34,928 nt of DNA, from contig JAJKFJ010002296.1 in the NCBI GenBank assembly GCA_027382625.1, positions 1-34,928 of the forward strand. Direction: 5' to 3'. Made by a program: the position numbers and the translations under genes. Positions 1,747 to 29,680 of this stretch are shown in pieces. Within the stretch, counting starts at the first letter, position 1; the number at the start of each line of letters is the position of its first letter. The notes beneath the pieces are model-generated. The model was given only the letters and a program-made list of their open reading frames with translations. It searched no databases and was not told where the DNA came from. Source of the DNA: Tetmemena sp. SeJ-2015 (taxonomy: Eukaryota; Ciliophora; Spirotrichea; Sporadotrichida; Oxytrichidae).

Positions 1747-1844
<98 letters not shown>

Positions 1845-4402
1845 TATCTCAATGTACTTCCTATCACGTTCCATCTTCATCTCCTATCGCGCTTTGTATG
1901 CGTTGCCAATATTCTCTGGGAAGAAGTTTGGCCTCACTGTGTTGATCACCTATCACACAGACTCATGAATCAAATCACAGATACTTACGTTGAAGAGGAA
2001 TTACCGATTCAGGATTCTTTGATCAGTAACGGTGGGCAAGTATTGAGAGATGAACTCGTCTTTCATCGCATCCTTCATTAAGTTGAGTGCTGATAGTTCT
2101 TTGAGTCGAGGAACTGCAACCATCTTCACTTGATTATTCTTGAGTGCCTAGTGATAGAGAGCAATGAGTTCACAACTATCTTACCTTCTTACGACCTGAG
2201 AAGATCTCTCTCAAGAAGTCAACTGTGCATTCTTCGTACGGAGGAACATAGTATTGCCCTATGATTGAAATGAAAACACCAACGCAGAGTCTTACCTATG
2301 TTAGTGAGAACGTTGTAGATCTCTCGCTTCGATCTCACGAACTGCTGCAGTTGACGACCACTTATCTTCTAGAGTCCAACTTGTTGTGATGCTTGGAAGT
2401 TGAGTCCACCTCTGTCGACTTGCCGTTGTCTCCACTCCTCTTACTCAACTTGTGCAGCTGTGGGTTGAAGTTGCTGTTAGCCCAACGGGATGTAAGTATT
2501 ATTTCTCTGTCCTTGTCTCGACCACATCAACTCTTGAGTAGAAGAGTTCTATGCATTCTATTGAGCTGAGACATAGAACGGATTCGTAGGAATAGTGTTT
2601 GAGTTCACACTCTATGTAGGTTGTGATGCTGCTTGACTTTAAGGAACAGGAACTGTTTGAGATGTAGCATTCTACTACTGGTTGGAAGTTGATTCACCGT
2701 TGGAAGAATCTTGAGTCTGTTGTTAAGTTGTCGTCGCTTGCGACTGTGCAACATTCTAAGTCGACTTAGTCTGAGTAGGAAGTGGAGTAGCTTGATTGAA
2801 ACTTGATTACTTAGTTTGAGATTGCTCGCTGAACTACTAAGGAGTAAATGTGAATGGCGTTGGAGTGAAGTTGTTGCCCATCATCGATATGTTCTATTAC
2901 GTTGTATCTCCACCTGAGCTATCAACTTGATTGTAACGAGTCTGAGGAATTGTGGAAGCAAACTATTCAGCGATTGGTTTAAAGAACTCACGCCTATCTT
3001 GCTGCGTTACCTCACGCAGATAACTTTGGTGATTCGCTTAGTTATTCCAAGTAGCTTGCTTGAACGAGGAACTTGCGTTATTGAAGTTGGGTTGAGAGTA
3101 ACGATTCGCATAGTTGCTTGGTTGCTGGAACTGATTCTAACTACGAGACTAGTTCACGTTGCTGTTGTCATTTACGAAGTAGTCCCACCTCTACTATTAC
3201 TATCGCTGATCTTAAACTTGCTACTGATATGGTTGAGCATAGTTAAACTGTTGCTGCTACTTCATTCGCGATGGAGCAAACTTCTGTTGTGATTGATTGT
3301 GAAACTGACTTTGAATCGGGTCTTAACCCGCGTTGCTACTCTGTGCCAAATGCTGTTGCAATAGTTGTTGCATCTCGTTAGGAATCTAACGGGGATCAAG
3401 TTCTTCGTTCTATCTCGCTCCGTCAGAGTTAGACACAGTATTCTAAGTTGGGTATGCTCCAGAGTTAGGAGGTTGATCACTACGTTGGAGACTCGCGTCT
3501 TCATACTCTCGTTGACTTTGATTAGCAGCATCATGTTCTCCTCCGTTGTCAGTCTACAAGAAACTTCAACCAACTTAGAACTCGTTGAGTGATACTCAAT
3601 GAAACGAAGATTGCTTACCGATTTCATTGCATGATCCTAACGACCCATTGCTCGCATTCGATCTGCTTCAGTCTTGAACTCTTCACCTGATTCATAACCG
3701 AATCCAGGATTCGTATCAGCTCCCTCTTCATCAACAACGTCTTAAGTTGCTTCCAAGAATTGAGACATTTACTCTTTGAATGCAAAGTTACCTTGACTAT
3801 CGTAGAAGTTGCCCTGTGAGTCTCCAACGTATGAGTGAGTTATATTTTAGCCAACGGTGTGAATCTCTCTTGGCATAGTTGTTTAGTTATCTGTGAAGTT
3901 GTGTTCACCGTTGCTCTCTCCGTTATCAACTTAGCTTTCTAACTAAGCCAACCTTCTTCTCTTCGTTGCAGTCTACGACTGATCAGTTGCTTACTCGATT
4001 TCAAGTTGAGAAGTTATAACTTTCTAAGGAGGAAGTGGAGTCTAGAGTGCTGAGTAGCCAGGCATAGTTCCAACTGAGTACTCAGTTATCTCACCTTCCT
4101 CGATTTCTTAGTCATGAGGTGGCCCGTTGAGCAAGGTCGAAGTTTACCCTGGATCCATCTCGTTGAAGTTCTATTACTAACTAAGTGCGTTTGTGGTGTG
4201 GTCACCGTATCCAGAATTCTTTCCCTGAAGCAAATGTGTGAGAGAGGAGTGAAGCACTTACTCTAATGATTGACTTGCGTTTGAGACTACTCAAACTTGA
4301 ATTCGGACTTTGCATATTCGTTGCCTTGCTTAAGTCCAAGCTTTGCATCAACGCTTGACTCTCGTTCATGTTGCTGGATTCGTTCTGCAGTGACTCGTTC
4401 AT
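1199..4402 (-). CDS. Gln-rich protein, left-arm copy with in-frame 117-nt insertion
   Basis: This is the mirror copy of the gene at 7998-11084. Exons, in transcription order, are 4262-4402, 3619-4224, 2296-3553, 2185-2258, 1989-2147, 1679-1949 and 1199-1644; the start is at 4402 and the TGA at 1199-1201. Exon 6 carries the C-run insertion, which adds 117 nt (39 codons). On this strand it would encode a repeated Asp-Arg-Lys-Tyr-Ile-Glu-Ile segment around a long poly-Gly, without a frameshift. Nine substitutions relative to the right copy fall in coding sequence: seven are synonymous (including TAG for TAA at 1376 and CAA for TAA at 2383) and two are conservative (Asn/Lys at 2061, Glu/Asp at 2414). 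If the C run is an artefact, this copy is otherwise intact. Confidence 0.75.
1727..1865. repeat. 96-base C homopolymer flanked by 22-nt direct repeats
   Basis: An uninterrupted C run (1748-1843) is bordered by two identical 22-nt copies (1727-1748 and 1844-1865; the first copy's last C is the first base of the run). The right arm has only one 22-mer and no run at the matching place, so 117 nt are extra here. Poly-G/C runs of this size are a typical base-calling or assembly artefact, and the 22-nt duplication looks like an assembly overlap. A biological explanation (slippage, templated insertion) is less likely but not excluded. Confidence 0.95.
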
Positions 4403-4638
4403 CTTTACTTAGTTATTTAATATATAATTACATTAATTGAATATCAGCGAAGATATGAAGCAACTGTGTTTGTTTGAAATTTTATGCAAGAACTGAAGCT
4501 CTCCGGAGAGAATGCTTCTTCACTATTCAACTTCATCTTATCATTCTAAATTCAACCATTACACTAACGAGGTATTGGTGCACTCACTGAGAAGATGCTG
4601 ACGAGTTTCATTCCTTGAATGAGATCTTCGTCGCGCTC

Positions 4639-5303
4639 TCATTGCTTTCGCTCTAACTTCTGCGCTCTCTGCACTCGTCTCCTCTCTTTCACTTCTCTCC
4701 ACTCTCTATTGAATTATCCCACTGCTCTCTCATTTCGGAGGCGAGTGTTCCTGTCAGCGGAGTTCTCACTGATGATGCTGCGCAATCCCCGTTGTAATGA
4801 GTTCACTGCAACGGCGCTTTGATTCAGCGAGAGTGAAGCTTCCTTAACGGGAGAGATTCTCTTAGGAGTAGCAAAAGTTTGAACTGTATCCACTGCGCCT
4901 TGCCGCGCTTTCGATTTGAGTTCTATAACTTTGAAGAGAGAAGAATCATACCCTCGATGTGAGAGCGCTCCCACGCTCGCTGCTTACTTAGAATGCGTGC
5001 AGAGCTTCGTGTTGGTTGATATTACTTCAGTGGAGATTCGGGCCGACATCTTCTTCTATAGCAGGAGTGAGAGAAGCGCGCATTCTTAGTTTTGTAACTC
5101 TTCTCGCATCTCGAACATTTGAAATCGAGAACAAGGTTTCTGTATTCAACCATGGTCATGCCATCGTGTTCATCAAGTAGATGACTCCTGAAGTTCCTGC
5201 TCTTCACTTCTGCTTCGCAATCATCAACTTGGCATACCTTTACAACCTTGCGCAAGTCTTTGTATCGCAAGCGCTGCTTTGCAAACCTGCTGCGCCTCTT
5301 CAT
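4639..5303 (-). CDS. Small two-finger C2H2-type zinc-finger protein, left-arm copy
   Basis: This is the mirror copy of the gene at 7097-7761: exon 1 is 4952-5303, the 29-nt intron 4923-4951, and exon 2 4639-4922, with a TGA stop at 4639-4641. I saw no difference from the right-arm copy, so its 211-residue product should be the same. See the right-arm entry for domains. Confidence 0.8.
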
Positions 5304-7096
5304 ATTTGATTCAAATTTAATATTACAATTGAGTGATTCAAATTCAAATATGGCCCAACAAGCCAACGCAGATCATTGCAAGTGAGGACAGCTCACCCCG
5401 TTACGCTGGCATCGTCTCACACGGAGTGATAGTGATTAGTTTAACATTGATTATCGTTGTATTGAGTGATAGTATGAATGAGTTGAATGAGTGAGGGCCA
5501 TTGAAATTTTGAGTCAACATCTTAAGATGGAAGAAATCAGGCGTCTGTGTTGGAAGGGGGGAACCCTCGCTCACGGCTCGGACGACGCCACACACCACGA
5601 CATGAGCACTCTCACTCTTCTCCACATAGCCACAACATAGCAAGTAGTTAGATACACGATAGAGAGTGATAGTATAGCATGAGTGAGAGGGGACAAAGAG
5701 TGACGATGAATTGCTCATGTTTCGTTCACATTTGTCATGATGGAAGAAATCAGGCTTCTGTGTCGACGGGGTGTTGGGGGACAATCATGATCTCCGATCC
5801 ACAACGAAGTAACACAACTCCATCTCTCACTCATCTGCAACTATCGCAACCACTGCACACTATCACACACTCATACACTACACTCAATGAGCAAGTATAC
5901 TCGTTAGTCCTCACTCTGCAGCCATTCACACACACATATTTCAAATTTCGTAACGGAGATCCTTGTGTATCTTAACTGTATCCACTTACGTAACGAGAAA
6001 CTGCTGTTACTATTTCACTCGATTGTCCTTCACATTCACTCATCATTATCACATCCTCATTCACACTCTGTCACTCATTCACTCCATCTCATTCACTCTA
6101 CTACTCATTCTGATTCAGATCATACACATACACCATACACCCTATTTGTATTTAGCTAGATTTAGATTTAGTTTTGCTGAGGACTCCGCTCCGCTCTAAA
6201 CTAGAGCGGAGCGGAGTCCTCAGCAAAACTAAATCTAAATCTAGCTAAATACAAATAGGGTGTATGGTGTATGTGTATGATCTGAATCAGAATGAGTAGT
6301 AGAGTGAATGAGATGGAGTGAATGAGTGACAGAGTGTGAATGAGGATGTGATAATGATGAGTGAATGTGAAGGACAATCGAGTGAAATAGTAACAGCAGT
6401 TTCTCGTTACGTAAGTGGATACAGTTAAGATACACAAGGATCTCCGTTACGAAATTTGAAATATGTGTGTGTGAATGGCTGCAGAGTGAGGACTAACGAG
6501 TATACTTGCTCATTGAGTGTAGTGTATGAGTGTGTGATAGTGTGCAGTGGTTGCGATAGTTGCAGATGAGTGAGAGATGGAGTTGTGTTACTTCGTTGTG
6601 GATCGGAGATCATGATTGTCCCCCAACACCCCGTCGACACAGAAGCCTGATTTCTTCCATCATGACAAATGTGAACGAAACATGAGCAATTCATCGTCAC
6701 TCTTTGTCCCCTCTCACTCATGCTATACTATCACTCTCTATCGTGTATCTAACTACTTGGTATGTTGTGGCTATGTGGAGAAGAGTGAGAGTGCTCATGT
6801 CGTGGTGTGTGGCGTCGTCCGAGCCGTGAGCGAGGGTTCCCCCCTTCCAACACAGACGCCTGATTTCTTCCATCTTAAGATGTTGACTCAAAATTTCAAT
6901 GGCCCTCACTCATTCAACTCATTCATACTATCACTCAATACAACGATAATCAATGCTAAACTAATCACTATCACTCCGTGTGAGACGATGCCAGCGTAAC
7001 GGGGTGAGCTGTCCTCACTTGCAATGATCTGCGTTGGCTTGTTGGGCCATATTTGAATTTGAATCACTCAATTGTAATATTAAATTTGAATCAAAT
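5304..7096. other. Non-coding palindrome centre, possible element terminus
   Basis: No frame survives with TGA as stop except short shadows that appear in mirror image on both arms. The flanks of the centre are rich in GTGAATGAG/GAGTGA-type short repeats (about 6290-6370 and their mirror) and end in CCGCT repeats at the pivot. A direct repeat GCCTGATTTCTTCCATC occurs at 6645-6661 and 6858-6874 (and mirrored on the left), each preceded by a C-rich stretch with ACAC. This organisation, gene-free and repeat-rich, would fit the subterminal region of a linear element, but that is inference. Confidence 0.55.
7051..7096 (+). promoter_or_regulatory. AT-rich promoter box of the small zinc-finger gene
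   Basis: The core TGTAATATTAAAT with flanking TTTGAA/TTTGAATCAAAT lies directly before the ATG at 7097. The same kind of box occurs upstream of the five other genes, so it is a likely TATA-like element of this gene set. It also argues for the start at 7097 rather than further upstream. Confidence 0.5.
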
Positions 7097-7761
7097 ATGA
7101 AGAGGCGCAGCAGGTTTGCAAAGCAGCGCTTGCGATACAAAGACTTGCGCAAGGTTGTAAAGGTATGCCAAGTTGATGATTGCGAAGCAGAAGTGAAGAG
7201 CAGGAACTTCAGGAGTCATCTACTTGATGAACACGATGGCATGACCATGGTTGAATACAGAAACCTTGTTCTCGATTTCAAATGTTCGAGATGCGAGAAG
7301 AGTTACAAAACTAAGAATGCGCGCTTCTCTCACTCCTGCTATAGAAGAAGATGTCGGCCCGAATCTCCACTGAAGTAATATCAACCAACACGAAGCTCTG
7401 CACGCATTCTAAGTAAGCAGCGAGCGTGGGAGCGCTCTCACATCGAGGGTATGATTCTTCTCTCTTCAAAGTTATAGAACTCAAATCGAAAGCGCGGCAA
7501 GGCGCAGTGGATACAGTTCAAACTTTTGCTACTCCTAAGAGAATCTCTCCCGTTAAGGAAGCTTCACTCTCGCTGAATCAAAGCGCCGTTGCAGTGAACT
7601 CATTACAACGGGGATTGCGCAGCATCATCAGTGAGAACTCCGCTGACAGGAACACTCGCCTCCGAAATGAGAGAGCAGTGGGATAATTCAATAGAGAGTG
7701 GAGAGAAGTGAAAGAGAGGAGACGAGTGCAGAGAGCGCAGAAGTTAGAGCGAAAGCAATGA
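7097..7761 (+). CDS. Small two-finger C2H2-type zinc-finger protein (211 aa)
   Basis: Exons are 7097-7448 and 7478-7761, with a 29-nt intron (GTATG...ATAG); the stop is TGA and in-frame TAA codons are read as Gln. Two zinc-binding motifs are visible: C24-x4-C29-x11-H41-x4-H46 and C63-x2-C66-x12-H79-x-C81, the second with an atypical last pair. The N-terminus is very basic, and the C-terminal half is charged and Arg-rich, ending in a likely helical Arg/Glu segment. The finger pair has the same spacing and the same linker (an x-Glu-Tyr-Arg motif) as the N-terminus of the 1170-residue protein at 13565-17077, so the two are probably paralogues. A nucleic-acid-binding role, perhaps at element ends or promoters, is inferred. 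It lies just upstream of the Gln-rich gene on the same strand. Confidence 0.82.
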
Positions 7762-7956
7762 GAGCGCGACGAAGATCTCATTCAAGGAATGAAACTCGTC
7801 AGCATCTTCTCAGTGAGTGCACCAATACCTCGTTAGTGTAATGGTTGAATTTAGAATGATAAGATGAAGTTGAATAGTGAAGAAGCATTCTCTCCGGAGA
7901 GCTTCAGTTCTTGCATAAAATTTCAAACAAACACAGTTGCTTCATATCTTCGCTGA
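7762..7956. other. Short intergenic region between zinc-finger and Gln-rich genes
   Basis: This is the 3' flank of the zinc-finger gene and the upstream region of the next gene. It contains an inverted repeat in CTCTCCGGAGAG at about 7888-7900. No coding potential is seen under the inferred code. Confidence 0.5.
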
Positions 7957-7997
7957 TATTCAATTAATGTAATTATATATTAAATAACTAAGTAAAG
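7957..7997 (+). promoter_or_regulatory. AT-rich promoter box of the Gln-rich gene
   Basis: TTCAATTAATG is followed by TAATTATATATTAAATA and ends 11 nt before the ATG at 7998. It is nearly the same as the box upstream of the transposase gene (26651-26681). Confidence 0.5.
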
Positions 7998-10900
7998 ATG
8001 AACGAGTCACTGCAGAACGAATCCAGCAACATGAACGAGAGTCAAGCGTTGATGCAAAGCTTGGACTTAAGCAAGGCAACGAATATGCAAAGTCCGAATT
8101 CAAGTTTGAGTAGTCTCAAACGCAAGTCAATCATTAGAGTAAGTGCTTCACTCCTCTCTCACACATTTGCTTCAGGGAAAGAATTCTGGATACGGTGACC
8201 ACACCACAAACGCACTTAGTTAGTAATAGAACTTCAACGAGATGGATCCAGGGTAAACTTCGACCTTGCTCAACGGGCCACCTCATGACTAAGAAATCGA
8301 GGAAGGTGAGATAACTGAGTACTCAGTTGGAACTATGCCTGGCTACTCAGCACTCTAGACTCCACTTCCTCCTTAGAAAGTTATAACTTCTCAACTTGAA
8401 ATCGAGTAAGCAACTGATCAGTCGTAGACTGCAACGAAGAGAAGAAGGTTGGCTTAGTTAGAAAGCTAAGTTGATAACGGAGAGAGCAACGGTGAACACA
8501 ACTTCACAGATAACTAAACAACTATGCCAAGAGAGATTCACACCGTTGGCTAAAATATAACTCACTCATACGTTGGAGACTCACAGGGCAACTTCTACGA
8601 TAGTCAAGGTAACTTTGCATTCAAAGAGTAAATGTCTCAATTCTTGGAAGCAACTTAAGACGTTGTTGATGAAGAGGGAGCTGATACGAATCCTGGATTC
8701 GGTTATGAATCAGGTGAAGAGTTCAAGACTGAAGCAGATCGAATGCGAGCAATGGGTCGTTAGGATCATGCAATGAAATCGGTAAGCAATCTTCGTTTCA
8801 TTGAGTATCACTCAACGAGTTCTAAGTTGGTTGAAGTTTCTTGTAGACTGACAACGGAGGAGAACATGATGCTGCTAATCAAAGTCAACGAGAGTATGAA
8901 GACGCGAGTCTCCAACGTAGTGATCAACCTCCTAACTCTGGAGCATACCCAACTTAGAATACTGTGTCTAACTCTGACGGAGCGAGATAGAACGAAGAAC
9001 TTGATCCCCGTTAGATTCCTAACGAGATGCAACAACTATTGCAACAGCATTTGGCACAGAGTAGCAACGCGGGTTAAGACCCGATTCAAAGTCAGTTTCA
9101 CAATCAATCACAACAGAAGTTTGCTCCATCGCGAATGAAGTAGCAGCAACAGTTTAACTATGCTCAACCATATCAGTAGCAAGTTTAAGATCAGCGATAG
9201 TAATAGTAGAGGTGGGACTACTTCGTAAATGACAACAGCAACGTGAACTAGTCTCGTAGTTAGAATCAGTTCCAGCAACCAAGCAACTATGCGAATCGTT
9301 ACTCTCAACCCAACTTCAATAACGCAAGTTCCTCGTTCAAGCAAGCTACTTGGAATAACTAAGCGAATCACCAAAGTTATCTGCGTGAGGTAACGCAGCA
9401 AGATAGGCGTGAGTTCTTTAAACCAATCGCTGAATAGTTTGCTTCCACAATTCCTCAGACTCGTTACAATCAAGTTGATAGCTCAGGTGGAGATACAACG
9501 TAATAGAACATATCGATGATGGGCAACAACTTCACTCCAACGCCATTCACATTTACTCCTTAGTAGTTCAGCGAGCAATCTCAAACTAAGTAATCAAGTT
9601 TCAATCAAGCTACTCCACTTCCTACTCAGACTAAGTCGACTTAGAATGTTGCACAGTCGCAAGCGACGACAACTTAACAACAGACTCAAGATTCTTCCAA
9701 CGGTGAATCAACTTCCAACTAGTAGTAGAATGCTACATCTCAAACAGTTCCTGTTCCTTAAAGTCAAGCAGCATCACAACCTACATAGAGTGTGAACTCA
9801 AACACTATTCCTACGAATCCGTTCTATGTCTCAGCTCAATAGAATGCATAGAACTCTTCTACTCAAGAGTTGATGTGGTCGAGACAAGGACAGAGAAATA
9901 ATACTTACATCCCGTTGGGCTAACAGCAACTTCAACCCACAGCTGCACAAGTTGAGTAAGAGGAGTGGAGACAACGGCAAGTCGAGAGAGGTGGACTCAA
10001 CTTCCAAGCATCGCAATAAGTTGGACTCTAGAAGATAAGTGGTCGTCAACTGCAGCAGTTCGTGAGATCGAAGCGAGAGATCTACAACGTTCTCACTAAC
10101 ATAGGTAAGACTCTGCGTTCGTGTTTTCATTTCAATCATAGGACAGTACTATGTTCCTCCATACGAAGAATGCACAGTTGACTTCTTGAGAGAGATCTTC
10201 TCAGGTCGTAAGAAGGTAAGATAGTTGTGAACTCATTGCTCTCTATCACTAGGCACTCAAGAATAATCAAGTGAAGATGGTTGCAGTTCCTCGACTCAAA
10301 GAACTATCAGCACTCAACTTAATGAAGGATGCGATGAACGACGAGTTCATCTCTCAATACTTGCCCACCGTTACTGATCAAAGAATCCTGAATCGGTAAT
10401 TCCTCTTCAACGTAAGTATCTGTGATTTGATTCATGAGTCTGTGTGATAGGTGATCAACACAGTGAGGCCAAACTTCTTCCCAGAGAATATTGGCAACGC
10501 ATACAAAGCGCGATAGGAGATGAAGATGGAACGTGATAGGAAGTACATTGAGATACTGCCAGAGATGTATGAGCTCATTACACACTCGAACGTGTGGTCG
10601 AATAGTAAGTTCTACATTGATCTCTAACTCCGTTGCAGCTCAGAGAGGCAGAGCACTTGATCTCCTCAACGCAGGAACGAAAGTTCGCAAAGCTCCTAAG
10701 CGAGCGCAACCTCTGAACGATAGACAGATTCATCTCTCTGATGTTGATATTGATTATCGATTCGGAACTCAAAGCATTCAACACGGTGTGAAGAGAATGC
10801 GAACAGCTACTTATCATGATACGAGTTTTGGTTAGATGAGAAAGACGAACTAGAGTGGAGCTCCTCGTTATGTTGAAGCTAGTTCTCGTGGAGTTGGTGG

Positions 10901-11084
10901 TGGATAAAACTCAACGCAGCCATTCTTTGATGGTTCAAGATTCAGAGAACAACTCTCTCAGTCGCAGACTAATCCATTCGCTGGACCTTCAGGTAATGGA
11001 GTTCAGAGTAACGCGAACTAATCAAGACAAGTTCCAACATCAGTTAGAGGTGAGCCTTCAACTTAAGCGTAACAAACCAACTGA
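7998..11084 (+). CDS. Large Gln/Asn-rich protein with C-terminal globular domain (945 aa)
   Basis: Seven exons give one open frame ending in TGA: 7998-8138, 8176-8781, 8847-10104, 10142-10215, 10253-10411, 10451-10604 and 10639-11084. Introns are 37, 65, 37, 37, 39 and 34 nt, all GT-AG with mostly GTAAG donors. Dozens of in-frame TAA/TAG codons sit in poly-Gln contexts. Residues 1-250 are acidic and low in complexity; about 270-640 are a Gln/Asn/Ser/Tyr-rich, prion-like stretch; about 640-840 look globular and the introns cluster there; the tail is Gly/Ser/Gln-rich with a basic patch. I do not recognise the globular domain. The two arm copies differ mainly at synonymous sites, so the protein appears to be under constraint. 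A structural, condensate-forming or nucleoprotein role is possible but unsupported. Confidence 0.85.
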
Positions 11085-11589
11085 CACAGCATTCACTGTT
11101 CACGAACGATTCAGTGCAACGGGCATCGTTGCTTTACAACGGCGAAGTATCTCTTCAATTTTAACTTACCTAAATTTTCAACAAGCAAGTATTCTTTGAC
11201 TCTTCCAGTAGAGTAGCTAGTGTTGTGCAAAGTTGTTGAACTCGTCGAGTGTTGTCTTGCGTGTGTTGGGTACGAGCACTTTTAGAGTTAGCTCGAACTT
11301 TAAACCCCAACACCCCCAAGACCCCAAACCCAAAACCCCTATGAGAATGAATAGATGTAGAGAGTGTATTTGTGTGTGAGAGAGATATTTAAAGATGCGA
11401 GAAATGATATTCACACTGTTGTTAGGTAGAGAAGATGCGTTAGGGATTGTGAAAACTAACGAGACTAAGATGCGTGAATTGGATTGAAGACAAATACTTA
11501 GCGAAGCAAATATATTTACAAGGTGAGTAAGTTCTTGATACTCTCATAGATGATTTGAATAGATGCGAGATAGTTCAGAGTGAGATCTC
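11085..11589. other. Convergent intergenic region, right copy
   Basis: The region lies between the stop of the Gln-rich gene and the stop of the minus-strand 577-residue gene. It contains the C4A4-like tract (next entry); otherwise it is 3'-flanking sequence with no coding frame. Confidence 0.6.
11302..11340 (+). repeat. Degenerate C4A4-like (telomere-like) tract
   Basis: Six C runs of 3-5 bases are separated by short A-rich spacers over about 36 nt. They resemble the C4A4 telomere repeat of spirotrich ciliates without being exact. The complementary strand could form a G-quadruplex. It could be a relic of telomere addition, an element-borne telomere-like motif (TBE termini carry such repeats, from memory), or a 3'-end structure separating convergent genes. 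Confidence 0.55.
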
Positions 11590-13446
11590 TCACACATTCT
11601 TAGCAGTGAGCTCGTAAGCTTCAAACAACTTTAGCTTGTTGCACCAGAAGGTGGAGTGATGAAGTGCAGGAGAGAACTTGCAACGAGGAACTGCTCTGAT
11701 CTCTAGAGTTGCAGTATTATCATCTCTCAGTGGTGAGACCATCACAGCATAGTGGAGCTCGTTGCTCTTGATAGTGAATGTACTTCTCCAATCATCAGGA
11801 CTTCCAGTGAATGCAAACATGAACTTCCTTTCCTTGATCTCGCTCTTGAGATAAGGTTGAACTGCAAGCATTTGCGAAGCTATCTTATTCAGTTAGAATA
11901 TCTGAATGTCAGGCCCACATGCTTGAATGATAACGCCGTTGTTTGTGAAGTCCTTCCTCACTGTCATATCAAAGCCAAGATAGACTTTCACCGTTGTGAG
12001 AAGTGATGGCAACGTGTCGTTGATGCTCACGTTATTCTTGTTGCAACAGAACTCTTTCATGATTTCATTGCAGAGGATATTCAGAGCAGTAGGCTTCAAA
12101 GTTATCTGTAGTGGATCTTCCTCCTTCACATTCTCAATCACTTTGGATATGAAGTCATTCATCAGAGTGTCGTATGTACTTCCAGGATGTTTGAGCAGCA
12201 ATGCGTTGAGGCTCTTCTGACTTAGCTTGAACTGAACAAACTTGACCTTCTCACTTCTGAGATACTGAGTGAGATGCTTGTAGTGATCGAGTGCGATCTC
12301 ACACTCAACGGGTTCATGTTGAAGTTGGAGTTTGTGCTCTCTCAACTTTGCATTTATAACTTGCGAGTGGAGTGAAGGTTAGTGGAACCAGAAGTAAGAC
12401 TTCTCAAATCTATCCTCCAAGTTGTTTAGATAAGGAAGAGCTCCAATCGTGAACGAGAGTTCATCTCCTTGAGAGTTCAAAGTTGTTCTTCCTCTGAAAA
12501 TAAGTTTACCATTCTCCGTTGTGTAAGTGGAGAACTCACCACCAACTCTGTGCACAGGATAGAGAATCCAATCAGTGACTGCGATTTGCTTGCGACTGAG
12601 TTCACTAGTTTGAGCATGTTCAGAGAGAATACCCAACACACGAGAGACTGCTTGCTCATGACCGTAGATGATTCCGTTCATGTCATCGCTTTTGAACGGG
12701 CCTTTGAAAGCAAGATCAAAGTTGAAGCTCAACTTCACAACACAGTGTTGATGTGGGTAAGTGTTCTCAATAATACAATCAGCATATGATCTTGATTTAG
12801 AACTGAAGAGCTTGCTCACGAGTTGAGCAAGTTGAGCTGTCTCTATCTTGAAGACTGTGTGAGTTTCTGAGAAGTCATGATCCTCAAGAATAGCAAAGCA
12901 ACTTTGCACCCAAGTGTTGATCGCGGATAGCTGAGTTGAATCATCTGTAGCAGAAGTTTTCCATGATGCCGTTGAATCAACTTCCACTGCAACGAAGGAG
13001 TGTGCCATCAGTGTGTGTGTGAGTTGTGAAAACGTTGAATCATCAACGAGCGAAAGCTCCTCAAGTTAGTTGACAATGTCATTGCAATAGCTTGGTGCAG
13101 CTGCGATACTTTGCATTGACTCCATTATCTCTACTCCTGTAATTAAATCAATAATTTAAATTCGTACCTTGAACGTTGATAGTTCCAACACTGATAAATT
13201 TCAATGAGTGAGAGTATCTGAAATGAGGAGCAACCATGTTCACGCTATTGAAATATCAACTCATCTGATTGTTTGATGATGCGGCCATTCAAAGTTGAGT
13301 ACGATACGCATAGTGAGTTCCGTCTGTAAGTGTTATTCTTTGTTCATCATACACACGAGTAGCACAATAGCAAATGATTCTGCTAACGAGAGAGCAGCGA
13401 TACTCGCTCACTTGTTTCCATATTGATTGTAAAGTGTAAGTTTCAT
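11590..13446 (-). CDS. Protein of unknown function, possible N-terminal OB-like fold (577 aa)
   Basis: Exons in transcription order are 13412-13446, 13308-13382, 13168-13244 and 11590-13136; introns are 29, 63 and 31 nt. The TGA stop is at 11590-11592 and one TAA in the large exon is read as Gln. The first two exons are short and less certain. They are chosen because they bring the start next to the shared promoter box and because the 63-nt intron contains an in-frame TGA. A minimal alternative starts at 13237. The N-terminal 60 residues contain a Leu-Thr-Asp-Gly motif between beta-like segments that reminds me of the N-terminal OB fold of RPA large subunits; this is weak. The remainder is unrecognised. 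The 3' 694 bases or so are duplicated in the left arm. Confidence 0.72.
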
Positions 13447-13564: not shown

Positions 13565-16500
13565 TCATTTGAGTATGGGCGCGAGAGCATGCGAAACTTG
13601 ATCGCGCAGTTAGGGCCAAGTGAAGTTACGATACTCTTTAAAGATTTACATTTGCAATGCCTTGTATGGATCGATTCTCTTCTTCACATCCATGTCGAGT
13701 AGCTTCCCCATGAGTTCATGCAATGGTTCAGGAATGGAGAATTCAAAGCTAATGTCTTGCAGAGGTTTTCTCTACGTGCAGAAGTTGCGGACGTCTTCAA
13801 CCGAGTACAACCATTCACGTGTAGCTAACCAGTATAGAACAAGTCCAACGCCCCACGAGTATCTCGCGTATGCGGTTTCACGATCTGCACGCATTGATTA
13901 GTTCATTTCTTCTGGAGGTAATTCCTTTCTAAAGTCTTTGTAGATGCGCATGCTTAACTTGTAGTCGAACTGCACTCGCAGAGGGAAAGCTTTACTATGT
14001 TGGAGTGACTTGGGTGAAACTAATCTGATTGGCATCATCTGCATCTGTGCCGTGTCGATCGCCTTCAGAAGGAAGTAAGCAATCACCGTTAGCTTCTTTG
14101 CATCGCGAAGTAATTGTCCGTTGACAGCTTGCTGCAACTAGAGTCCTTTCTTGTCTTGGATGAAAGCGAGGTAGTCTCCGAAATACAAACGCGCAAGTGG
14201 CGCTAGAATGAAGTATCGATAACTCGCAAGTATATCAGTTCGATCGAATGCTCCTTCTCTTCTTAAGAACGCGCTCTGGACCGGCTCCGTTCTTAGGATA
14301 AGATGGAATTCGTTTGGTTGAGATGCGAGCGCTTCGTCGACCTCCCCCATTTCGTAGACAAGACTCTCTGCGAGGTAAGTTATCCGATTCGATGAAATGT
14401 TTTCAAGTTTGATAATGCGTAATTTGTACTTTACAAGGCCGCGTTCTTATAAGTAGGGAATTATGAGTTGAGCACAGATTCGCGACGAGCGCTTTAAGTA
14501 GCTGAGTTCAAGATTCTAAGCATAGATCATAGATGTGGCTTTGAGTTCTCGTGTCAGATACATGTAGTAGTCGAAGCAAGTTCGCTTGAAAATGTTGAAC
14601 ACAATATCCTTCTCTTGTTGTAACTCTTAAGCCTTGAAGATAATCGCGTCAATGTCTTGTTGCTCCTGCACGGAGAGAGTGTGTTGAGGTACAGAGTACA
14701 AACCAACTTTCAAGGGGATTGCAGCTCTGATAACGTGAGTGGATTTGATCATTGAAACTCCATTCATAACGGTGGCGTCGATGAGTTTGCGAAGCTAGAA
14801 GATGCACTAGTGAGGCGACAGCAGTGTGATGTATGACTTGCCTATCTGCAACGACTCTTTCACTCCATTTGGCACCGCACGCTAGAGCGCTTCGAATGCG
14901 TGCTCATAACTATTTTACCTTTCACTTAATAAGAACTTATACTACTCTGGTTCAATGTCTTTCGCTATGTCGCATAGCTCTAAAAACTTATCGAGCAAGA
15001 TCGTCTCGCTTTCTTTGCGCATCCAATACTTCAATCCTCTTGCGTTGGCCATAGGTAGAAGATAACAGTGATACAGTTCGTGTCTAGATATCTTCAACTT
15101 AGAATGTCCCGTTAGGAAGTAAAGTATCTGCAGAGTCATTGCATAGTTTGCGAAGAACTGCGTTGGCTCCTTCATTTCAATCTCACGCTTCTTATCTTCA
15201 AAGTAACCTCGTGCATTCTTTGTGTCGATGTACTTATCCAAGATCATGATGTCTGCTTCCTTCTTCTCCTTCGAATCTTCTGCATCCGCGAGTGCAACTT
15301 AACTCTGTGAGCGTCTAAGCAATTCAATTCTTCCAAGCTCATCGTTGGAATGTTCAAGGTTGAAGAATCCACTGCTCTGAATTCGTTGCTCGACATCAAG
15401 TTTCTCCTTGCTAATGAAGTTCAAGTACTGGATAGAATCAAGTTCACAGTTCAACAAATCATATACTTTGATAGAAGTTCCACGTTGGAACTTATCCTTT
15501 GTTAGCAGACGTTTGCTGCTGTTGTGATTATACTACCAAGCGAATGATTGAATCCTGTTAGATGAGTTGAGAAACTCAGTGATAGCTGCGATTGATTTCT
15601 TGTCCAAGCGCGACGAGAGAATGAAGGCGTGAGTGATTTCCTGTTCAAGATCTTTCAAGATGGAGTGAGCCTTGTCTGGATCCCAGAGCAAGTACTTGAT
15701 GCGGTTGTTGAATGCTTGCACTGATTCGTAATCAAAGTCTCTGTGGTTTTCAGCCCAGCGCTTATGAATCTTCTTCGCTGTTGCGAGATCTGCCTAAGTC
15801 AAGCGGAAGCAATAAACTTTGCAACTGTATCGGAGACAAGTTCGCATCGACATCAACGTGTTGTATTGGCCAATGTCACAGAACGTTGAATCTCTGTTGA
15901 GACCACTGAATACAAACTCAGCAATGATCTCATTCACGGAAGTGCTGCATAAGATGTCGACATCTCTCGATTTCGTTTTCTTCGTAGGAGACTTCTTTCC
16001 CTTCGACGGAGTTGGACCTCTATCATCGTCGAAGACATCTTGCTCGAATTCAGTTTGCAGTTGATGTGAGAATTGCTGAATGAGTTAGTTCTGCACAACT
16101 AACTTGCTCATCTCTTGCTGAGATATCAGTGATCGTTCGTAAGGTTTTATATCCAACTACTACTTGTGATCGTAGTAGACTTAATCGATAGTGCGTGAAA
16201 GCGAATCGTCAATGACTTGTTGTTAGAGAAACTCCTGTGCGAGAATTCTCAGTCTCTCGTATCCGTCATCGTCTGTCTAAGTTCCTTAGTCCACCATCAT
16301 ACGTGGTGCTTCGTTGCGTGTGGCTGGTAGTTGTTGATAAGAACTTTGGAAAGTAAATGAGTTGCGTCTCTCGTTGTCGTGTAACGACTCAACGCTGTTG
16401 TCATTATCTCCTTCATATTTAAAGTAAGCCTCATCTCCAACGAGAGAACCTACTGACTCTGTGATTGATGTGATTTCAATATTCTCAACGAGTGAGTTCA

Positions 16501-17077
16501 TTGGTGGTGATGAGATATTAGTTGGAGGCGCAGCCTTTGCTCTCTTTCCAAGGAGACTTGTGTTGGGTGGTAGTGATCTTGAAATAGGAGTTGTCGTCGT
16601 TATGAATGATGACTTCCGTTTGGAGCTAGTCTCCATGCTCTGAACCTCTTGTCTATCTGCTTACACTATATCAAAGTATTTGAATTCAAGTGAATGCTTA
16701 CCATTCAACTCTGTCGGTTTCAATCGCAGAGGATGTTCCTTCTTCGCTCTCTTACTTGGAAGTTGCTCGTTCTTGGATTCTTCGTTCAACAACTCTTGAT
16801 CATCAATGCTGTCTCTCCTTGGTTCGTTGTTTCGTTCACCAACTTGCTTCCCCTTGATACGTCCTGTCTTCTCTTTGTATTGATGACTTCTTAAGGTGCT
16901 CTTGTTCGGATAACCTTTGCCACACATATCGCAGATGAACGCGCGATCGCCACCTCGATACTCAAGGACGCTGAGGCCATCATGGTATTTCTTCAAATGA
17001 TAGAAGAGAGTCTTGTCAGTAACTTATGTCTGACAACCATCCAAGCCACAGGCAAATGATTGATTCGCTTCCGCCAT
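13565..17077 (-). CDS. Zinc-finger plus pseudokinase-like protein (1170 aa)
   Basis: One uninterrupted frame runs from the ATG at 17077 to a TGA at 13565-13567; TAA/TAG codons are read as Gln and there are no introns. The N-terminus has C10-x4-C15-x11-H27-x4-H32, then C49-x2-C52-x12-H65, matching the small zinc-finger protein at 7097. Next come a polar Ser/Thr-rich region, a basic Lys-rich patch near residue 360 that could be a nuclear-localisation signal, and a long helical middle. The C-terminus looks like a degenerate kinase: a hinge-like LVYEMGE, an IRLVSPKSL segment (1017-1025) where HRDLKP would be, FDY near 1037, then YSWGVGLVLYWLA (1073-1085) and LLDMDVKKRID resembling subdomains IX-XI. 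The catalytic Asp and DFG appear absent, so it is probably inactive. From memory, TBE transposons of Oxytricha encode a 57-kDa protein with zinc-finger and kinase regions, a possible relative. Confidence 0.82.
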
Positions 17078-17395
17078 ATATTTCGATTAGTAAATTTGAA
17101 TTTAAATTATAAAGTTTGAATTGAAACTTATCTTATTAATAAGCAAGATCCGTATCCAAAGCACTTCAAGAGTGCAGTAGATGTAATGTATCTACTGAAT
17201 GAAGAACTCAAGAGTGAATAGAGAGGATAGGATATCTTGCCCGTGTGAGGTTTTACTTACTTCTTCAATCTGATTCTCGTTAGGCGTAACGGAGTCTGAG
17301 TTATTCTGCAACAACTAATCTGCACTGCTGAAGTTGGAGTGACTTAACCAAAATATCTTCGCTGATTAAGATTCAAATTATAATATTAAATATAA
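17078..17395. promoter_or_regulatory. Divergent promoter region between the 1170- and 1567-residue genes
   Basis: This 318-bp region separates two ATGs that point away from each other. AT-rich boxes sit at both edges: minus strand 17078-17120 (TATAATTTAAATTCAAATTT) and plus strand 17371-17395 (ATTCAAATTATAATATTAAA). The middle is mixed and shows no coding frame. Shared control of the two genes is likely from the geometry. Confidence 0.6.
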
Positions 17396-22660: not shown

Positions 22661-23083
22661 TACCTTTACTAAATTTCAAGTGAACCATTACTAAATTTTG
22701 AACCATTACTAAATTTCAAGTGAACCATTACTAAATTTGGGTGAACCATTACTAAATCAAAGGTGAACTTTTACTAAATTGTGAACCATTACTAAATCAA
22801 AGGTGAACTTTTACTAAATTGTGAACTTTTACTAAATTTCAAGTGAACCATTACTAAATTGTGAACCATTACTAAATACTTGAACCATTACTAAATACTT
22901 GAACCTTTACTAAATTTTAGGTGAACCATTACTAAATAGTGAACCTTTACTAAATCTCAAGTGAACCATTACTAAATCAAAGGTGAACCTTTACTAAATC
23001 TGGTGAACCTTTACTAAATTTGGTGAACCTTTACTAAATCAACGGTGAACTTTTACTAACTCAACGGTGAACCTATACTAAAT
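22661..23083 (+). repeat. Iteron-like array of about 21 copies of a 17-bp motif
   Basis: The repeated core is TGAAC(C/T)(A/T)TTACTAAAT, all in one orientation, with 0-5-nt spacers of a few recurring types (TCAAG, CAAAG, CAACG, ACT). Average spacing is close to 20-21 bp, about two helical turns, which would place bound protein on one face of the DNA. Variants alternate CCATT, CCTTT and CTTTT. Such arrays act as replication-initiator or transposase/zinc-finger binding sites in other systems; here that is inference. No ORF reads through it. Confidence 0.85.
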
Positions 23084-23504: not shown

Positions 23505-23707
23505 AGAGCTTGGCGACACTGCTTATGGAGGAGTGAGGACGAGAGGCAAGGTAATCAATCTGTTTATATCTATCAACTTGATATAGGTGGTGGCATATAA
23601 AGAGCAGGTCTGAGAGCTTCCATTAATTTGATCAAAACTTCTGAAGCTGTCTGCAGCAGTCTAAGAAAAGGTCTCAATTAAATTAATGAGAACTCTACGT
23701 TGCACTT

Positions 23708-23782: not shown

Positions 23783-24193
23783 GAAATGAAAAGACAAGTT
23801 CATCAAGTAGCAACTTTCAATTCTCCATTTTATTTATTGCAAGCTAAATTTATAGAGACACAAACTTATCTAGAGAGTACCTAAATAAATAAATGAGAGA
23901 ACTTCAATTAATTTAATTGGAGAGACCTTGGCTTCTCCTTGCTAAATTATTTGAAACTGAGACCCAATAATTAATTAAATCAACTCAAGTAATCTAAGGT
24001 AAGTAGTTTAGTTTGATAGGAACCCAAATGTACAGAAGCCTTGTCTAGTAGTTGAAGAAACCCACACTGATTAGATTAACTAAACGGTGAGGATGACCTC
24101 ACCTAAGAGATAGGCTCTGTATATTCGGGTACCCAATGAGAAAGCTAGATACCTATATCCACCAACGGAAATACAGTCGTTCCTATCCTCATG

Positions 24194-25216
24194 CTTCTAA
24201 ATTCCAATGCTAAGAGTAAACAACCTATACAGACCGCTTCCATAATAATGGGCACAGTCCACAGGAGGAAGGTGGTCCGCTACCTATACTTGCCGCTTCC
24301 ACTTGTGGGCACAGCTCGCCGGAGATAGAAGACCACGCTCTTAGGTCTCTCGAGTAAACAACCTATGCGCACCGCTTCCATAAAAATGGGCACAGCTTGC
24401 CGGAGGAAGGTGGTCCACTACCTATACTTGCCCAACCTAGTCTGTAGGGTGGGCCGGCCGGAGATAGTGGACCACGCTCGAAAGAATACTGAAGCTGAGT
24501 GTGCAACCTATACGTACCGCTTCCATAAAGATGGGCACAGTCCGCAGGAGGAAGGCGGGCCTCTCCTATACAGACCGCTTCCGCATGGGGGCACAGTCCG
24601 CCGGAGTAAGAGGCCCGCGCTCAGCAGGTGGTTCCCCCTCCTCACAAGTAAACAACCTATACGTACCGCTTCCATGAAAATGGGCACAGTCCGCGGGAGG
24701 AAGGTGGTCCTCTACCTATACTTGCCGCTTCCACTTGTGGGCACAGCTCGCCGGAGATAGAGGACCACGCTTGTGAGAACGATAACTGAGTGTTCAACCT
24801 ATACAGTCCGCTTTCGCATGGGAGCACAGACCGCCGGAGGAAGGTGGTCCTCTACTTATACTTGCCGCTTCCATATGTGGGCACAGCTCGCCGGAAGTAG
24901 AAGACCACGCCCAGTTATCAAGGTAGTTGAGTGTGCAACCTATACGTACCGCTTCCATAAAAATGGGCACAGTCCGCCGGAGGAAGGCGGGCCTCTCCTA
25001 TACAGACCGCTTCCGCATGGGGGCACAGTCCGCCGGAGCAAGAGGCCCGCGCTCAACTTGGGGGCACTAGAGTAAACAACCTATACAGTCCGCTTTCACA
25101 TGGGAGCACAGACCGCCGGAGGAAGGTGGTCCTCTACCTATACTTGCCCAACCTAGTCTGTAGGGTGGGCCGGCCGGAGATAGAGGACCACGCTCTAGGA
25201 ATTGGAATAGTAGAAG
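24194..25216 (+). ncRNA. Seven-unit array of structured RNA-like repeats with co-varying stems
   Basis: Seven units lie at 24210-24344, 24350-24481, 24494-24625, 24641-24777, 24781-24919, 24925-25058 and 25067-25198 (132-139 nt). Each opens and closes with its own complementary pair: CTAAGAG/CTCTTAG, TCGAG/CTCGA, GCTGAG/CTCAGC, CTCACAAG/CTTGTGAG, GATAACTG/CAGTTATC, AGTTGAG/CTCAACT and CTAGAG/CTCTAG. Inside are two similar modules with conserved CCTATAC, CCGCTT, GGGCACAG and CGCCGGAG. The second module sits within a further stem that also co-varies (GGTGGTCC/GGACCAC versus GGCGGGCC/GGCCCGC). A hairpin replaces itself by length and sequence while staying paired. The array is closed by CTTCTA-ATTCCAAT (24194-24208) and ATTGGAAT-TAGAAG (25201-25216). 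I do not recognise the RNA family. The strand is inferred from G-U-tolerant pairing and remains uncertain. Confidence 0.8.
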
Positions 25217-25979
25217 GTGATGATAATAATTGATTATATTTCCGCGTGGTTATATATGCATCTGCAACGGGATTTGAATATTCGTTTAGGAGGATGCCAC
25301 AACCAACGGACTACTTATAGCGCGAACGCCAACGGTAAAATTTTATAATTATTTATAAAAATTCAGGAGCGCGCCGAGGCTCTGCTTCGAACTAACTGTC
25401 TGAGATGTAAATTGATGCGAGGAGCCTTCTGCGATTTTTGGCGAATCTGAAAACTTTCAATTAATACATAAGAGCGCTCGCTTTACATTTTCAATTTTAA
25501 TGGAGCTAAGTAAGGAACTCTTTCGACTAAATTTGAATGCGGCCAACTGGTTTTTATGGAAACTGTTTGCATCGAGTTTAGCTTACATAAATTAAATTGC
25601 AACTCAGAGGAAGCTTGTTGTTCATTTTTACAAATTGAACTTAATTTTAGTCCTGGCGTCAATAAATAAATTCCCGTTCAAGATAATTTCAAACCTATTT
25701 ATTGGAGCCAAGAGGTGAAGCTCTCAACGGGAAAATCATTTTGTCAAATTTTATAGAAAACTTCACCTTCACATAAATTTAACTTCGAGTCGGTATACGC
25801 CGGGCACCTCAATTAATAATGAGCCGAGTAGCTCAATTAAATTTATGCAGCTTCAATTAAATTATTGTTTCAGGCTTTGAGAGAGTCTCTCGTCTTGTGC
25901 TCCAAATTAATGAAATGACATTCAAACTCTAACAAGGGTAAGTAGAACATGACATTTTGCTTTCATACTGATGTTTATT
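25217..25979. other. Gene-free region between the RNA array and the pseudoknot-like fold
   Basis: No coding frame. It contains several CAACGG hexamers, a GC-rich patch at about 25370-25435, and CTCAATTAA-type segments that can pair locally (25805-25870). CAAATTAATG near 25903 is complementary to CATTAATTTG near 23625, which could be a long-range pairing across the RNA array, but ten AT-rich bases are weak evidence. Confidence 0.4.
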
Positions 25980-26681: not shown

Positions 26682-29178
26682 ATGTGGAAGCAATTCAAGC
26701 GCACAGTCGACGCAGCAAGCAACCTCCTTGCTCGAAGATAGAATCAGAGCAACGAAAGCAGTTTAGATTGAAGCAGTGTCAGCGATCGAAGTGAGTCTAT
26801 CATTTCAACAACCTTGCTCCATACTTAAGCAAGTGGACCTGTGAGAGAGAGCGTGACTCAAGGTCGGCGCAAGACTGTTACACTATGGACACCAGTTGTC
26901 ATAGGTAAGGCATTCACTCGCACGTTCAGTGCAACTAAGAAAGAGTATTCAACAACGAGATAACTTCACCACATGCGAATCCCAACTGTGTGTCAGAGTT
27001 TAGAAGGTGGACTCATCATTGATCTTCCTCAGAGTGAGATTCAAAGCAAACTCAACGAAATCATTGAGGTCTCAAACTTTGAGAGTGATGAAACATTGAT
27101 AGAGTATCTTAGAGCTTTGTACTTGAACATCAAGCAACGCAAGTTAGACAAGAAGTAAAGCAACTCGTCTCAACTCCCGTTGAAGCAACACAACTAATTC
27201 TCAAACTCTGCCGTTGGAACAAACCTGGAGGATGATCCAGTGTAGAGATCTCTTGCAGCAATCTTAAATAGGAGTACGAAGTAGTTGGAACCAGAGTTGG
27301 AGGAACTCATCAATCAACCACGATTCAAACGCAGAGTTCAGAAGAAGTTTGAGAAGGAGCAACTCGTGAAGCGACTCTACTTCAAAGACAATGTCAAACC
27401 TAAGTTGATAGCGAAGGAAGCAAAGATGTCTGTTGATGTTGTCAGAGCAATCATTGTGAAATCAAAGTACATTATGCGTGAGCAAGAGAAGCGTGAGAAG
27501 GGAACGTTCAGACCTGGTCCTCGTGGTTACAGTCGAGTTGAGTTGTGCGAGGCGATTCAACGGAGATTAGAAGTTGGAGGAGTTCACGGAGTCAACCTTG
27601 AAACTTTAAGAGCAGGACTTGAAGAGGATATGTTGCGAGAGAAGATGGAGAGCGGATTAGAGTTGGAGGAAGAGAAGTAAGTTCAGAATGCAACTCCGTC
27701 AGAGAAAGTTTACACGAGCGCTCGCTCGTTGCGTGATCACATTCCTTGTCCAACAACTCTGAGTTCAGTGTTGCGAGATGAATTCAAGTTGCAGTTCGGT
27801 TCATACCAGAGTTCTAATCTCAAGTATTCAGATCCTAACTTCGATGAGAAACGATAGTGGGTTGCGAGACTGCTCGCGCAGTTCTTGTTCGAAGATTTCA
27901 TTATCATCAGCATTGACGAAAGCAACTTTAGATCTGACACGGTGAAGAAGAGGCAGTGGACGTTGAACAACAACATCATTCGTCGTCATCTCAAAGATCA
28001 ACTTGAAAGTGGATTCGGCAACGGGAGTGAAGATGACAACGAGGATGCGAGAGATGAGTCATCAGCGAATTCAAATAGTGTAAGTTATAATCGAATCAGA
28101 TATTTAGAATTTATAATTTAATACTTTACAATAGAATAGAAATGATGAAGTGCTATCGCACTCCGCACATTGCTTCACAACTCCACGAACTAAAGTGAGG
28201 AACGAACATGCAAGGCAGTAGATAAGTTCAGTGCGGAGACGACTCGATCGATTCGATTTGATGAGCGCAGCAAGTATGTCTAATCAGATTTGATGTTGCT
28301 AGGTTCTAAAGATGAAAGTTCAGTGCAAGTGCGCACTCAACTCACTCCGATTGCAGAGCACAATGATGAATACATTTCCTCCACTCTGAAGAAGCAAGCA
28401 AGAGATGATTCATTCGAATCAAGTTGCAGTGGTCCAATCTCAAACTCAAACGTGGGCAGTGGCGAGAATGTTGAGAGCGATTCAGAAGGTAAGAAGTTGA
28501 TTGCTCAACGAAACTTGTAGCTGATGTTTCACAAGTTGATAACACGAACGATTTTGAATCAGAGGAACAGATTGCAACAGAGAACTTGATTGACAAATCA
28601 CGAATCAGATTAGACAAAGCACTTGGTAGATTCGGCCAAGTTGCGCAGAAGTTGTGCAGAGAGAAAGAGAAGAATCGCAGATAGTAGTATTCGATGTCAT
28701 TGCTTTCAGCACTATCGCAAGATCAAGTCATTGCAACACAAATTCTTGAAGGTGGTGTTGACTCAACGGTGTTTGAAAACTTCGTGTACAGAACGTTGTT
28801 CAGTGTAAGATCTTCACTCGAGACTCAGAACAAAGATGTACTCGTATTCATGGACAACGCAGTGATACATAGACATTCTCAAGTACTAGAGACATGCAAG
28901 TTGTTCAAGTGTCATGTTCTCTTCAATGCGCAATACTCACCATGGCTGAATCCTGTTGAACAACTCTTTGGTCAATTGAAACGATAACTTAAGAAAGCAA
29001 AAGTTGATAGCAAGTAAGTTTACGATTCTCGTTGCAACTCTAACATTCGCGTTATAGAGAATAGTTGGTAACGGCGATCGCTCAAGCAATCAAAGATCTT
29101 GATCAAACGAAGACTCAGTCACTCTGGTTGTTCAGTATCAAAGCATGGATTCAAACTCTAACCCTTGGCCATGTTTGA
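26682..29178 (+). CDS. DD34E transposase, Tc1/mariner/IS630 superfamily (about 778 codons, in-frame TGA)
   Basis: Exons are 26682-28079, 28135-28273, 28303-28488, 28521-29013 and 29058-29178; introns are 55, 29, 32 and 44 nt, and the stop is TGA at 29176-29178. A helix-turn-helix lies around residues 226-258. Catalytic residues are visible: Asp412 in ISIDESNF, Asp686 in VFMDNAVIHRH and Glu721 in SPWLNPVEQLFGQLKR, with 34 residues between the last two. This is the RNase-H-like cut-and-paste core. The 273 residues between the first two Asp are far more than the roughly 90 usual in the family; the extra acidic, Ser-rich segment carries the first three introns. A TGA at 26769-26771 (codon 30) interrupts the otherwise open frame. 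It may be a mutation or error, or translation may start at the ATG at 26973. No terminal inverted repeats were found beside the gene. Confidence 0.85.
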
Positions 29179-29194
29179 AGATCAAGATTGAGAT

Positions 29195-29680
29195 CTCATG
29201 TATCGATTCAACATGATTGATAACTCATGCTTCGCAACTTGTGCTCGTGTTCGGTGACTCATGTTTGGTGACTCATGCTTCGCAACTTATGTTTCATAAC
29301 TCATGTTTCATACCTCATGTTTGAGAATTCATGTTTGGGCACTCATGTTTGGGCACTCATGCTTGAGAACTCATGTTTGAGCACCCATGTATGAGAACTC
29401 ATGTTTGGGCATTCATGCTTGAGCACTCTTGTATTAGCACTCATGTTTAGGAACTCGTGTAAGGCAACAAATGTTTTATATATAATGTTTGGGCAATCAT
29501 GTATGAGCACTCATGTTTTCGCACTCATGTTTTCGCACTCGTGTTTTAGAACTCATGTTTTAGCATTCAGTTTTAGAACTATGTATCACAATCATGTATG
29601 ATGACAGCTATATATATTTAATGTTGGCGAACTTATGATTTACAGCATGTTTTCGCAGTCATGTTTTCGACGGCGATCTG
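29195..29680 (+). repeat. Degenerate 15-16-nt tandem repeat around ACTCATGTTTG
   Basis: About 25-30 decayed units of the form (G/A)CACTCATGTTTGGG or AACTCATGCTTGAG run in one orientation just after the transposase stop. They become more AT-rich toward the right end, where TTTTCGCACTCATG dominates. The units are less regular than those at 22661-23083. It could be a subterminal repeat block of the element. Short reading frames here are products of the repeat. Confidence 0.75.

Follow-up and report, generated by a model that had tools for sequence, protein, structure and literature searches.

The array of tandem repeats at 24194-25216 is best read, in our view and with moderate confidence, as the middle of a transposon-borne element that folds best as minus-strand RNA, a predicted non-coding RNA that would likely serve as a multivalent protein-binding scaffold. 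The RNA reading itself is well supported by comparative structure, all comparisons being made among copies inside one genome. The stretch analysed here, called the window, is an entire contig of 34,928 nucleotides out of the 5,213 contigs of the 146-Mb genome of the ciliate Tetmemena sp. SeJ-2015. C4A4 repeats stand at the start of several contigs, the longest frame of the window extends from 209 aa under table 11 to 1,249 aa under code 6, with TAA and TAG read as glutamine, and the ciliate telomerase RNA model of Rfam matches the genome at 66.1 bits against a cut-off of 52; these features point to a spirotrich host and, likely, a germline assembly.

Architecture of the array and of the larger element

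TRF reports a tandem array of period 140 and 6.9 copies, in agreement with the seven units, here seen to be imperfect copies, that a first-pass annotation had recognised from the letters. The outermost positions, 24194 and 25216, belong to the two arms of a stem enclosing the complete array (CTTCTAAATTCCAAT / ATTGGAATAGTAGAAG), one arm at 25201-25216 and its partner at 24194-24208, both placed on the minus strand by sequence and fold. Between them, and likewise on the minus strand, follow unit 7 (25063-25205, outer stem included here and below), unit 6 (24922-25064), unit 5 (24781-24922), unit 4 (24639-24782), unit 3 with its GC-rich inner stem (24490-24632), unit 2 (24345-24489) and unit 1 (24207-24350). 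The first modules are spaced by 138, 145, 149, 142, 141 and 141 nt, and the GC content of the array is 52% as compared with mostly 34-44% in the rest of the surrounding transposon.

Three further features described at first pass were found again: each unit consists of two versions of one module, the outer stems are unlike between units yet still complementary, and the inner stem (about 11-14 bp) switches from GGTGGTCC/GGACCAC to GGCGGGCC/GGCCCGC in units 3 and 6. A repeated hairpin, reading CCU-CCG-GCGGACUGU-GC-CCAU ... AUGG-AA-GCGGUCUGU-AU-AGG on the minus strand and containing two internal loops, occurs at 14 places in the window's array, two per unit, once alone (hairpin A) and once extended by the inner stem (hairpin B). 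It is rich in wobbles, with U-G pairs closing it on the minus strand. The blocks CCTATAC, GGGCACAG and CGCCGGAG, previously taken to be unpaired, are mostly paired and form the two sides of this hairpin.

Although the array is real, the span originally assigned to it covers just the central part of a longer conserved element at about 23999-25366. We predict this element to be a non-coding RNA gene on the minus strand from its conserved ends and its better minus-strand fold, its limits being a plus-strand GTAAGT and AG. At one end lies an AT block kept in all 16 copies examined, whose TATA-like part (25340-25347, minus strand) is a putative promoter element, followed by a conserved end domain (25270-25339, minus strand), the window version of the GGACTACTTAAG block and the predicted 5' end of the RNA. 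At the other end, a conserved extended hairpin of 105 nt (24023-24127, minus strand) is predicted to form the 3' part. Across the window-, L009- and L060-type copies that share it, this hairpin is 86.4% paired and has 7 doubly changed pairs compared with 2.5 in shuffles, and its energy is lower on the minus strand in 12 of 13 rows, the exception being L023, which folds better on the plus strand. The signal becomes weaker when the distant L073 is added (4 versus 2.0 doubly changed pairs, with 26 of 500 shuffles as high).

The same end domains flank differing middles, and some copies keep both ends and others one, as in L020, L042 and L043, which retain the 25.3-kb end alone. The number of units varies from 1 to 8 between copies: seven in the window and in L023, seven plus a divergent eighth in L009, two in L015 and one in L020. 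Unrelated structured repeats make up the middles of L060, L061, L062 and L074, and another fold that of L073; our unit model R1 has no match in the L060-, L061-, L062-, L042-, L043-, L073- or L074-type middles. Four L060-type copies together give a consensus fold of -202.2 on the minus strand versus -157.4 on the plus strand, with 9 versus 7 compensatory pairs. In the window, R1 matches four of the seven units on the minus strand, a number we think is due to overlapping neighbour ranges, as well as one weak site on the plus strand (18.2 bits); weak opposite-strand matches are also seen in L023, L009 and L015. The host transposon, the conserved flanking domains and the copies with other middles were absent from the first-pass description.

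Strand of the fold and compensatory changes

Structures were compared in alignments A1 and A2, which hold 20 units from five sources (seven each from the window and L009, three from L013, two from L015 and one from L020). Excluded were the divergent last unit of L009, the fused first and divergent last units of L013, the near-duplicate L023, the near-identical L024-L026, the partial or degenerate L011, L016, L018, L019, L021 and L022, and L010, L012, L014 and L017 for low quality. The latter four contain many homopolymer-like differences in length and letter and are probably low-quality contigs.

All 20 units tested fold better on the minus strand, with a mean of -57.3 compared with -45.7 kcal/mol, and the consensus fold of the units reaches -42.2 (z -15.2) on the minus strand versus -24.2 (z -7.4) on the plus strand. 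Similarly, the minus strand is the more stable one in 7/7 copies of the whole element and has the lower z in six of them, L074 being the exception (plus -3.6, minus -1.8); for the window region z is -9.3 on the minus strand, and in L062 and L025 the energy is also lower on this strand. A plus-strand RNA as the main fold was rejected because it folds less well in the unit, consensus and element comparisons. The array and its compensatory changes are real as first described, but the strand on which they had been read was wrong.

A minus-strand structure of 45 pairs has 89.0% of 887 cells paired, in contrast to 39.0-44.3% when slid. Eighteen of its pairs are changed on both sides compared with 11.8 in shuffles, and the doubly changed cells amount to 77 versus 27.0, none of 500 shuffles coming as high. 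Further pair types in the same structure show no excess, as 181 of 500 shuffles reach the count. The strongest points for compensation on minus-strand RNA are the kept U-G pairs, wobbles at fixed places in 20/20 and 19/20 units. Overall, G-U cells outnumber A-C cells by 127 to 33 in a structure derived partly from the minus strand, which biases this count; in the outer and inner stems alone, which both strands share, the counts are 20 and 8, a single pair supplying 11 of the 20. The double-sided changes in excess of shuffled and slid controls, together with the kept wobbles, support the earlier proposal that selection acts on structure and not on protein.

Nature also provides a broken copy. 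In L023, two of the seven outer stems, those of units 2 and 3, are unpaired, apparently after an exchange between units.

The host transposon and its transposase

The array's element belongs to a Tc1/mariner-type (DDE_3) transposon. About 11.6-29.6 kb of the window reads as transposon, mostly at 34-44% GC and with other long frames, and adjoins DNA of 22-29% GC beyond 30 kb. The transposase region lies on the plus strand and comprises a first open frame under code 6, to which no family is assigned (26814-28145), and the DDE_3 catalytic part (28586-29191; PF13358, 64.8 bits against a cut-off of 28.6), which resembles 35 proteins in public sequences. Repeats of 14 nt are found near the right end of the transposon (29257-29584).

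For the orientation of the two parts, 46 element matches were compared with the 23 same-contig transposase entries among the 150 scored matches listed. Counting transposases among the matches listed, 23 pairs of element and transposase are at most 6 kb apart, and in 20 of them the folded strand runs antisense to the transposase; the other 23 element matches have no transposase within 6 kb among those listed. One of the three exceptions sits on the second arm of an inverted contig, one is a fragment of 141 nt, and the one on C1941 is without explanation. Among the matches listed, the element is upstream of the transposase in 15 of the 20 antisense pairs, at a distance of 2,995-3,586 nt in 14 of the 15, and five pairs are scored as downstream, namely the L009-type copies on C2063, C1729 and C2455 and two elements on C1992, which are ambiguous as a same-way transposase also follows both. 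In L009-type copies the array adjoins the terminal 14-nt repeats, and six such copies share the transposon end, after which their flanks diverge. When the window was compared with the 7-kb L009 locus over stretches of at least 150 nt, leaving out array-internal ones below 88% identity, one terminal-repeat stretch was recovered along with the element and the transposase region, which are 74.7% and 75.3% identical, respectively. Judged by these values, the element is as strongly conserved as the transposase region.

Comparable in this context are the TBEs (telomere-bearing elements), which are likewise ciliate Tc1/mariner transposons with a DDE transposase, as attested in the window by the PF13358 match. 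In Oxytricha and relatives they are described, in the passages of the source that deal with them, as having three ORFs and telomeric terminal repeats (PMC4724952). These same passages describe no structured RNA, whereas the window transposon carries a predicted one, and they give the TBE termini as telomeric CA4C4A4C4, whereas the L009-type transposon end, seen in six copies and for one end, has no C4A4 repeat (PMC4724952). The 1,249-aa code-6 frame on the minus strand at 13565-17314 looks like the TBE 57-kD ORF, as a C2H2 finger lies close to its start and its tail is weakly kinase-like. Its matches to zf-C2H2 (E 0.0069) and to Pkinase (E 0.02) stay below the curated cut-offs, however, and a homologue search at E 0.001 found none. 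As the zinc finger/kinase frame is just weak and the one end seen lacks the telomeric repeat, we do not file the host element as TBE.

Several other features of the window were observed along the way. A tandem repeat of the form TGAAC[CT][AT]TTACTAAAT with 18 pattern copies occupies 22662-23083 and is similar to the element upstream of the U2 gene in this genome (TTGAACCATTAACATTTAG), and a CTATAG follows about 31 nt past its last copy. Could this be a plus-strand promoter of the snRNA type in iterated form? The same type of repeat is present in L023, L024 and L025 and in none of nine other loci counted, several of which are short. A hairpin with the kept loop TGTCTGCAGCA is found at 23590-23680 and in L007 and L061; its long stems are quite different yet complementary across the three copies, two of which fold better in the window's plus sense and the window copy slightly better on the minus strand. 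Finally, positions 1-12282 form a perfect palindrome, centred near 6200, whose arms are 100% identical; just one of the arms contains a stretch of 96 C, at 1748-1843. Head-to-head copies of the element exist also on C22, C2836, C97, C129, C3171 and C3027, and such arrangements are either an amplification artefact or real inverted dimers.

Alternative explanations

The main rival to an antisense RNA gene is a purely sense intron, that is, a long and structured intron of spliceosomal type in the plus-strand leader transcript of the transposase, an intron that would run from the splice-donor-like GTAAGT (23999-24004, plus strand) to the splice-acceptor-like AG (25365-25366, plus strand) and whose folds would join the splice sites or regulate splicing. 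It draws on the presence of GTAAGT in 11/11 upstream-type copies having that end, L073 and L074 among them, and of AG soon past the AT block in 12/12 upstream-type copies, and on the fact that both signals are missing at these places in the four L009-type copies examined, in three of which the element is downstream of the transposase. However, these four copies keep the AT block, the units and the 3' hairpin without these splice signals, and the plus strand folds worse in 20/20 units and 7/7 elements, so that we regard an intron as the whole explanation as unlikely. The minus strand at 23996-24004 reads TACTTAC(CTT), also in L060, L062, L073 and L074, which resembles the 5' end of U1 snRNA. 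A U1 mimic at the GTAAGT end is possible, if less simple than a plus-strand donor site.

Even less probable, to our mind, is a small-RNA precursor whose hairpins would be processed into short RNAs for silencing or marking the transposon. Hairpins are numerous, and small and long non-coding RNAs serve ciliate DNA elimination (PMC7374600, PMC12203969), but the conserved internal loops and fixed wobbles exceed what a mere source of duplexes would need, and the inner stems are just 11-14 bp or so in length.

The first-pass annotation had considered RNA or cruciform DNA, and this pair of options can now be narrowed. A structure at the DNA level without any RNA, either as cruciform palindromes or as arms kept alike by template switching, would be consistent with stems that drift yet stay complementary and with the many inverted repeats in this assembly. 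The U-G pairs fixed in 20/20 and 19/20 units would count as mismatches in DNA, and correction of one arm by the other would erase them, which disfavours this explanation, and the strand asymmetry of the fold also speaks for minus-strand RNA; we therefore judge it improbable. A protein-coding repeat, for which a 419-aa plus-strand frame open across the array under code 6 might argue, was rejected and is scarcely credible, as conservation tracks base pairs and the spacings of the units, though three of the six are multiples of three contrary to what had first been noted, still shift the frame along the array.

Known families and comparable systems

No known family had been recognised in the array at first pass, and this holds for Rfam 15, which gives no match at gathering score in the window. 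With E values up to 5, the region 23900-25400 yields just MIR2655 and sR1, both at chance level and far below their gathering scores. A tRNA-derived element was rejected as ARAGORN finds no tRNA genes and no tRNA fold, and group I and group II ribozymes were dismissed for want of an Rfam match. Other candidates were equally set aside: a tRNA-type internal promoter at the B-box-like TTCAAATCCC on the minus strand, which is not kept in L060 and L043; a likeness of CCGGAGGAAGGTGGGG to 16S rRNA, no rRNA model being among the Rfam matches with E up to 5; and an snRNA-type promoter, as the conserved element upstream of the U6 and U2 genes in this genome, known as the PSE, is absent by eye from the minus strand at 25460-25181. 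Words of the unit module occur in one viral and three prokaryotic contigs, in all four of which the unit model R1 has no match with E up to 1, and a word of the 3' hairpin occurs in no viral contig. Searches of open-licence papers brought up no report of a transposon-borne structured RNA of this kind.

Nevertheless, partial parallels exist. The omega RNA of TnpB/Fanzor elements is a structured non-coding RNA borne by a transposon, as is predicted for the window element, which differs in that repeated hairpins form an array next to a DDE transposase and that the 10 window frames compared with Pfam include no TnpB/Fanzor-type nuclease. In the DNA transposon IS10, RNA-OUT runs antisense to the transposase gene, an orientation shared by the predicted RNA here, which is far larger and does not overlap the transposase frame. 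Bacterial CsrB and fly roX are multivalent repeat RNAs that present one hairpin motif many times in variable copy number. The window array likewise repeats one hairpin motif in a variable number of units; unlike CsrB and roX, it is carried by a transposon, two internal loops interrupt its hairpin motif, and its binding of a protein is a prediction. IStrons combine a group I intron with an insertion sequence (PMC4227781), a single mobile unit thus containing both a DNA transposon and a structured RNA. Compared with IStrons, the window element has intron-like ends too, but these look spliceosomal, no group I model matches in Rfam, and its array consists of repeated units.

A predicted antisense RNA gene and its possible role

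Following the antisense reading, the minus strand would give rise to a non-coding RNA some 0.5-1.4 kb long that is antisense to the transposase. Transcription would begin at the TATA-like block around 25340 and proceed in the direction of 23999, the RNA starting just past the AT block at 25340-25347 and having the 105-nt hairpin near its end. The repetition of one hairpin with conserved loops, the variable number of units and the drifting stems suggest a scaffold, which would offer the repeated hairpin many times as a protein-binding site. The stems would merely position these sites and, with their role limited to holding the hairpins in place, could drift freely while pairing persists. The protein bound may be the element's own, used for transposition, or a host factor for silencing or DNA elimination that is soaked up by the RNA; we lean slightly towards such a host-factor sponge. 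The RNA gene would be nested within a plus-strand leader intron, and with intron ends on that strand, neither transcript should interfere with the other.

Ciliates clear transposons from their working nucleus by an RNA-guided machinery (PMC7374600, PMC12203969), with a ciliate transposase also implicated in this DNA elimination (PMC4724952). Against this background, we tentatively put forward, at somewhat below even confidence, that Tc1/mariner transposons of this ciliate carry their own large modular RNA gene, placed antisense in the leader intron of the transposase and built from two conserved end domains and an exchangeable middle, one version of which has 14 hairpin sites. The RNA might belong to an RNP that takes part in transposition or be a decoy that blunts RNA-guided DNA elimination, and it would be the first of its kind in eukaryotic cut-and-paste elements. 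The finding raises the testable question of which protein binds the repeated hairpin. If the proposal is true, a transposon RNA conserved in structure would be a new player in the contest over elimination or a new cofactor of transposition.
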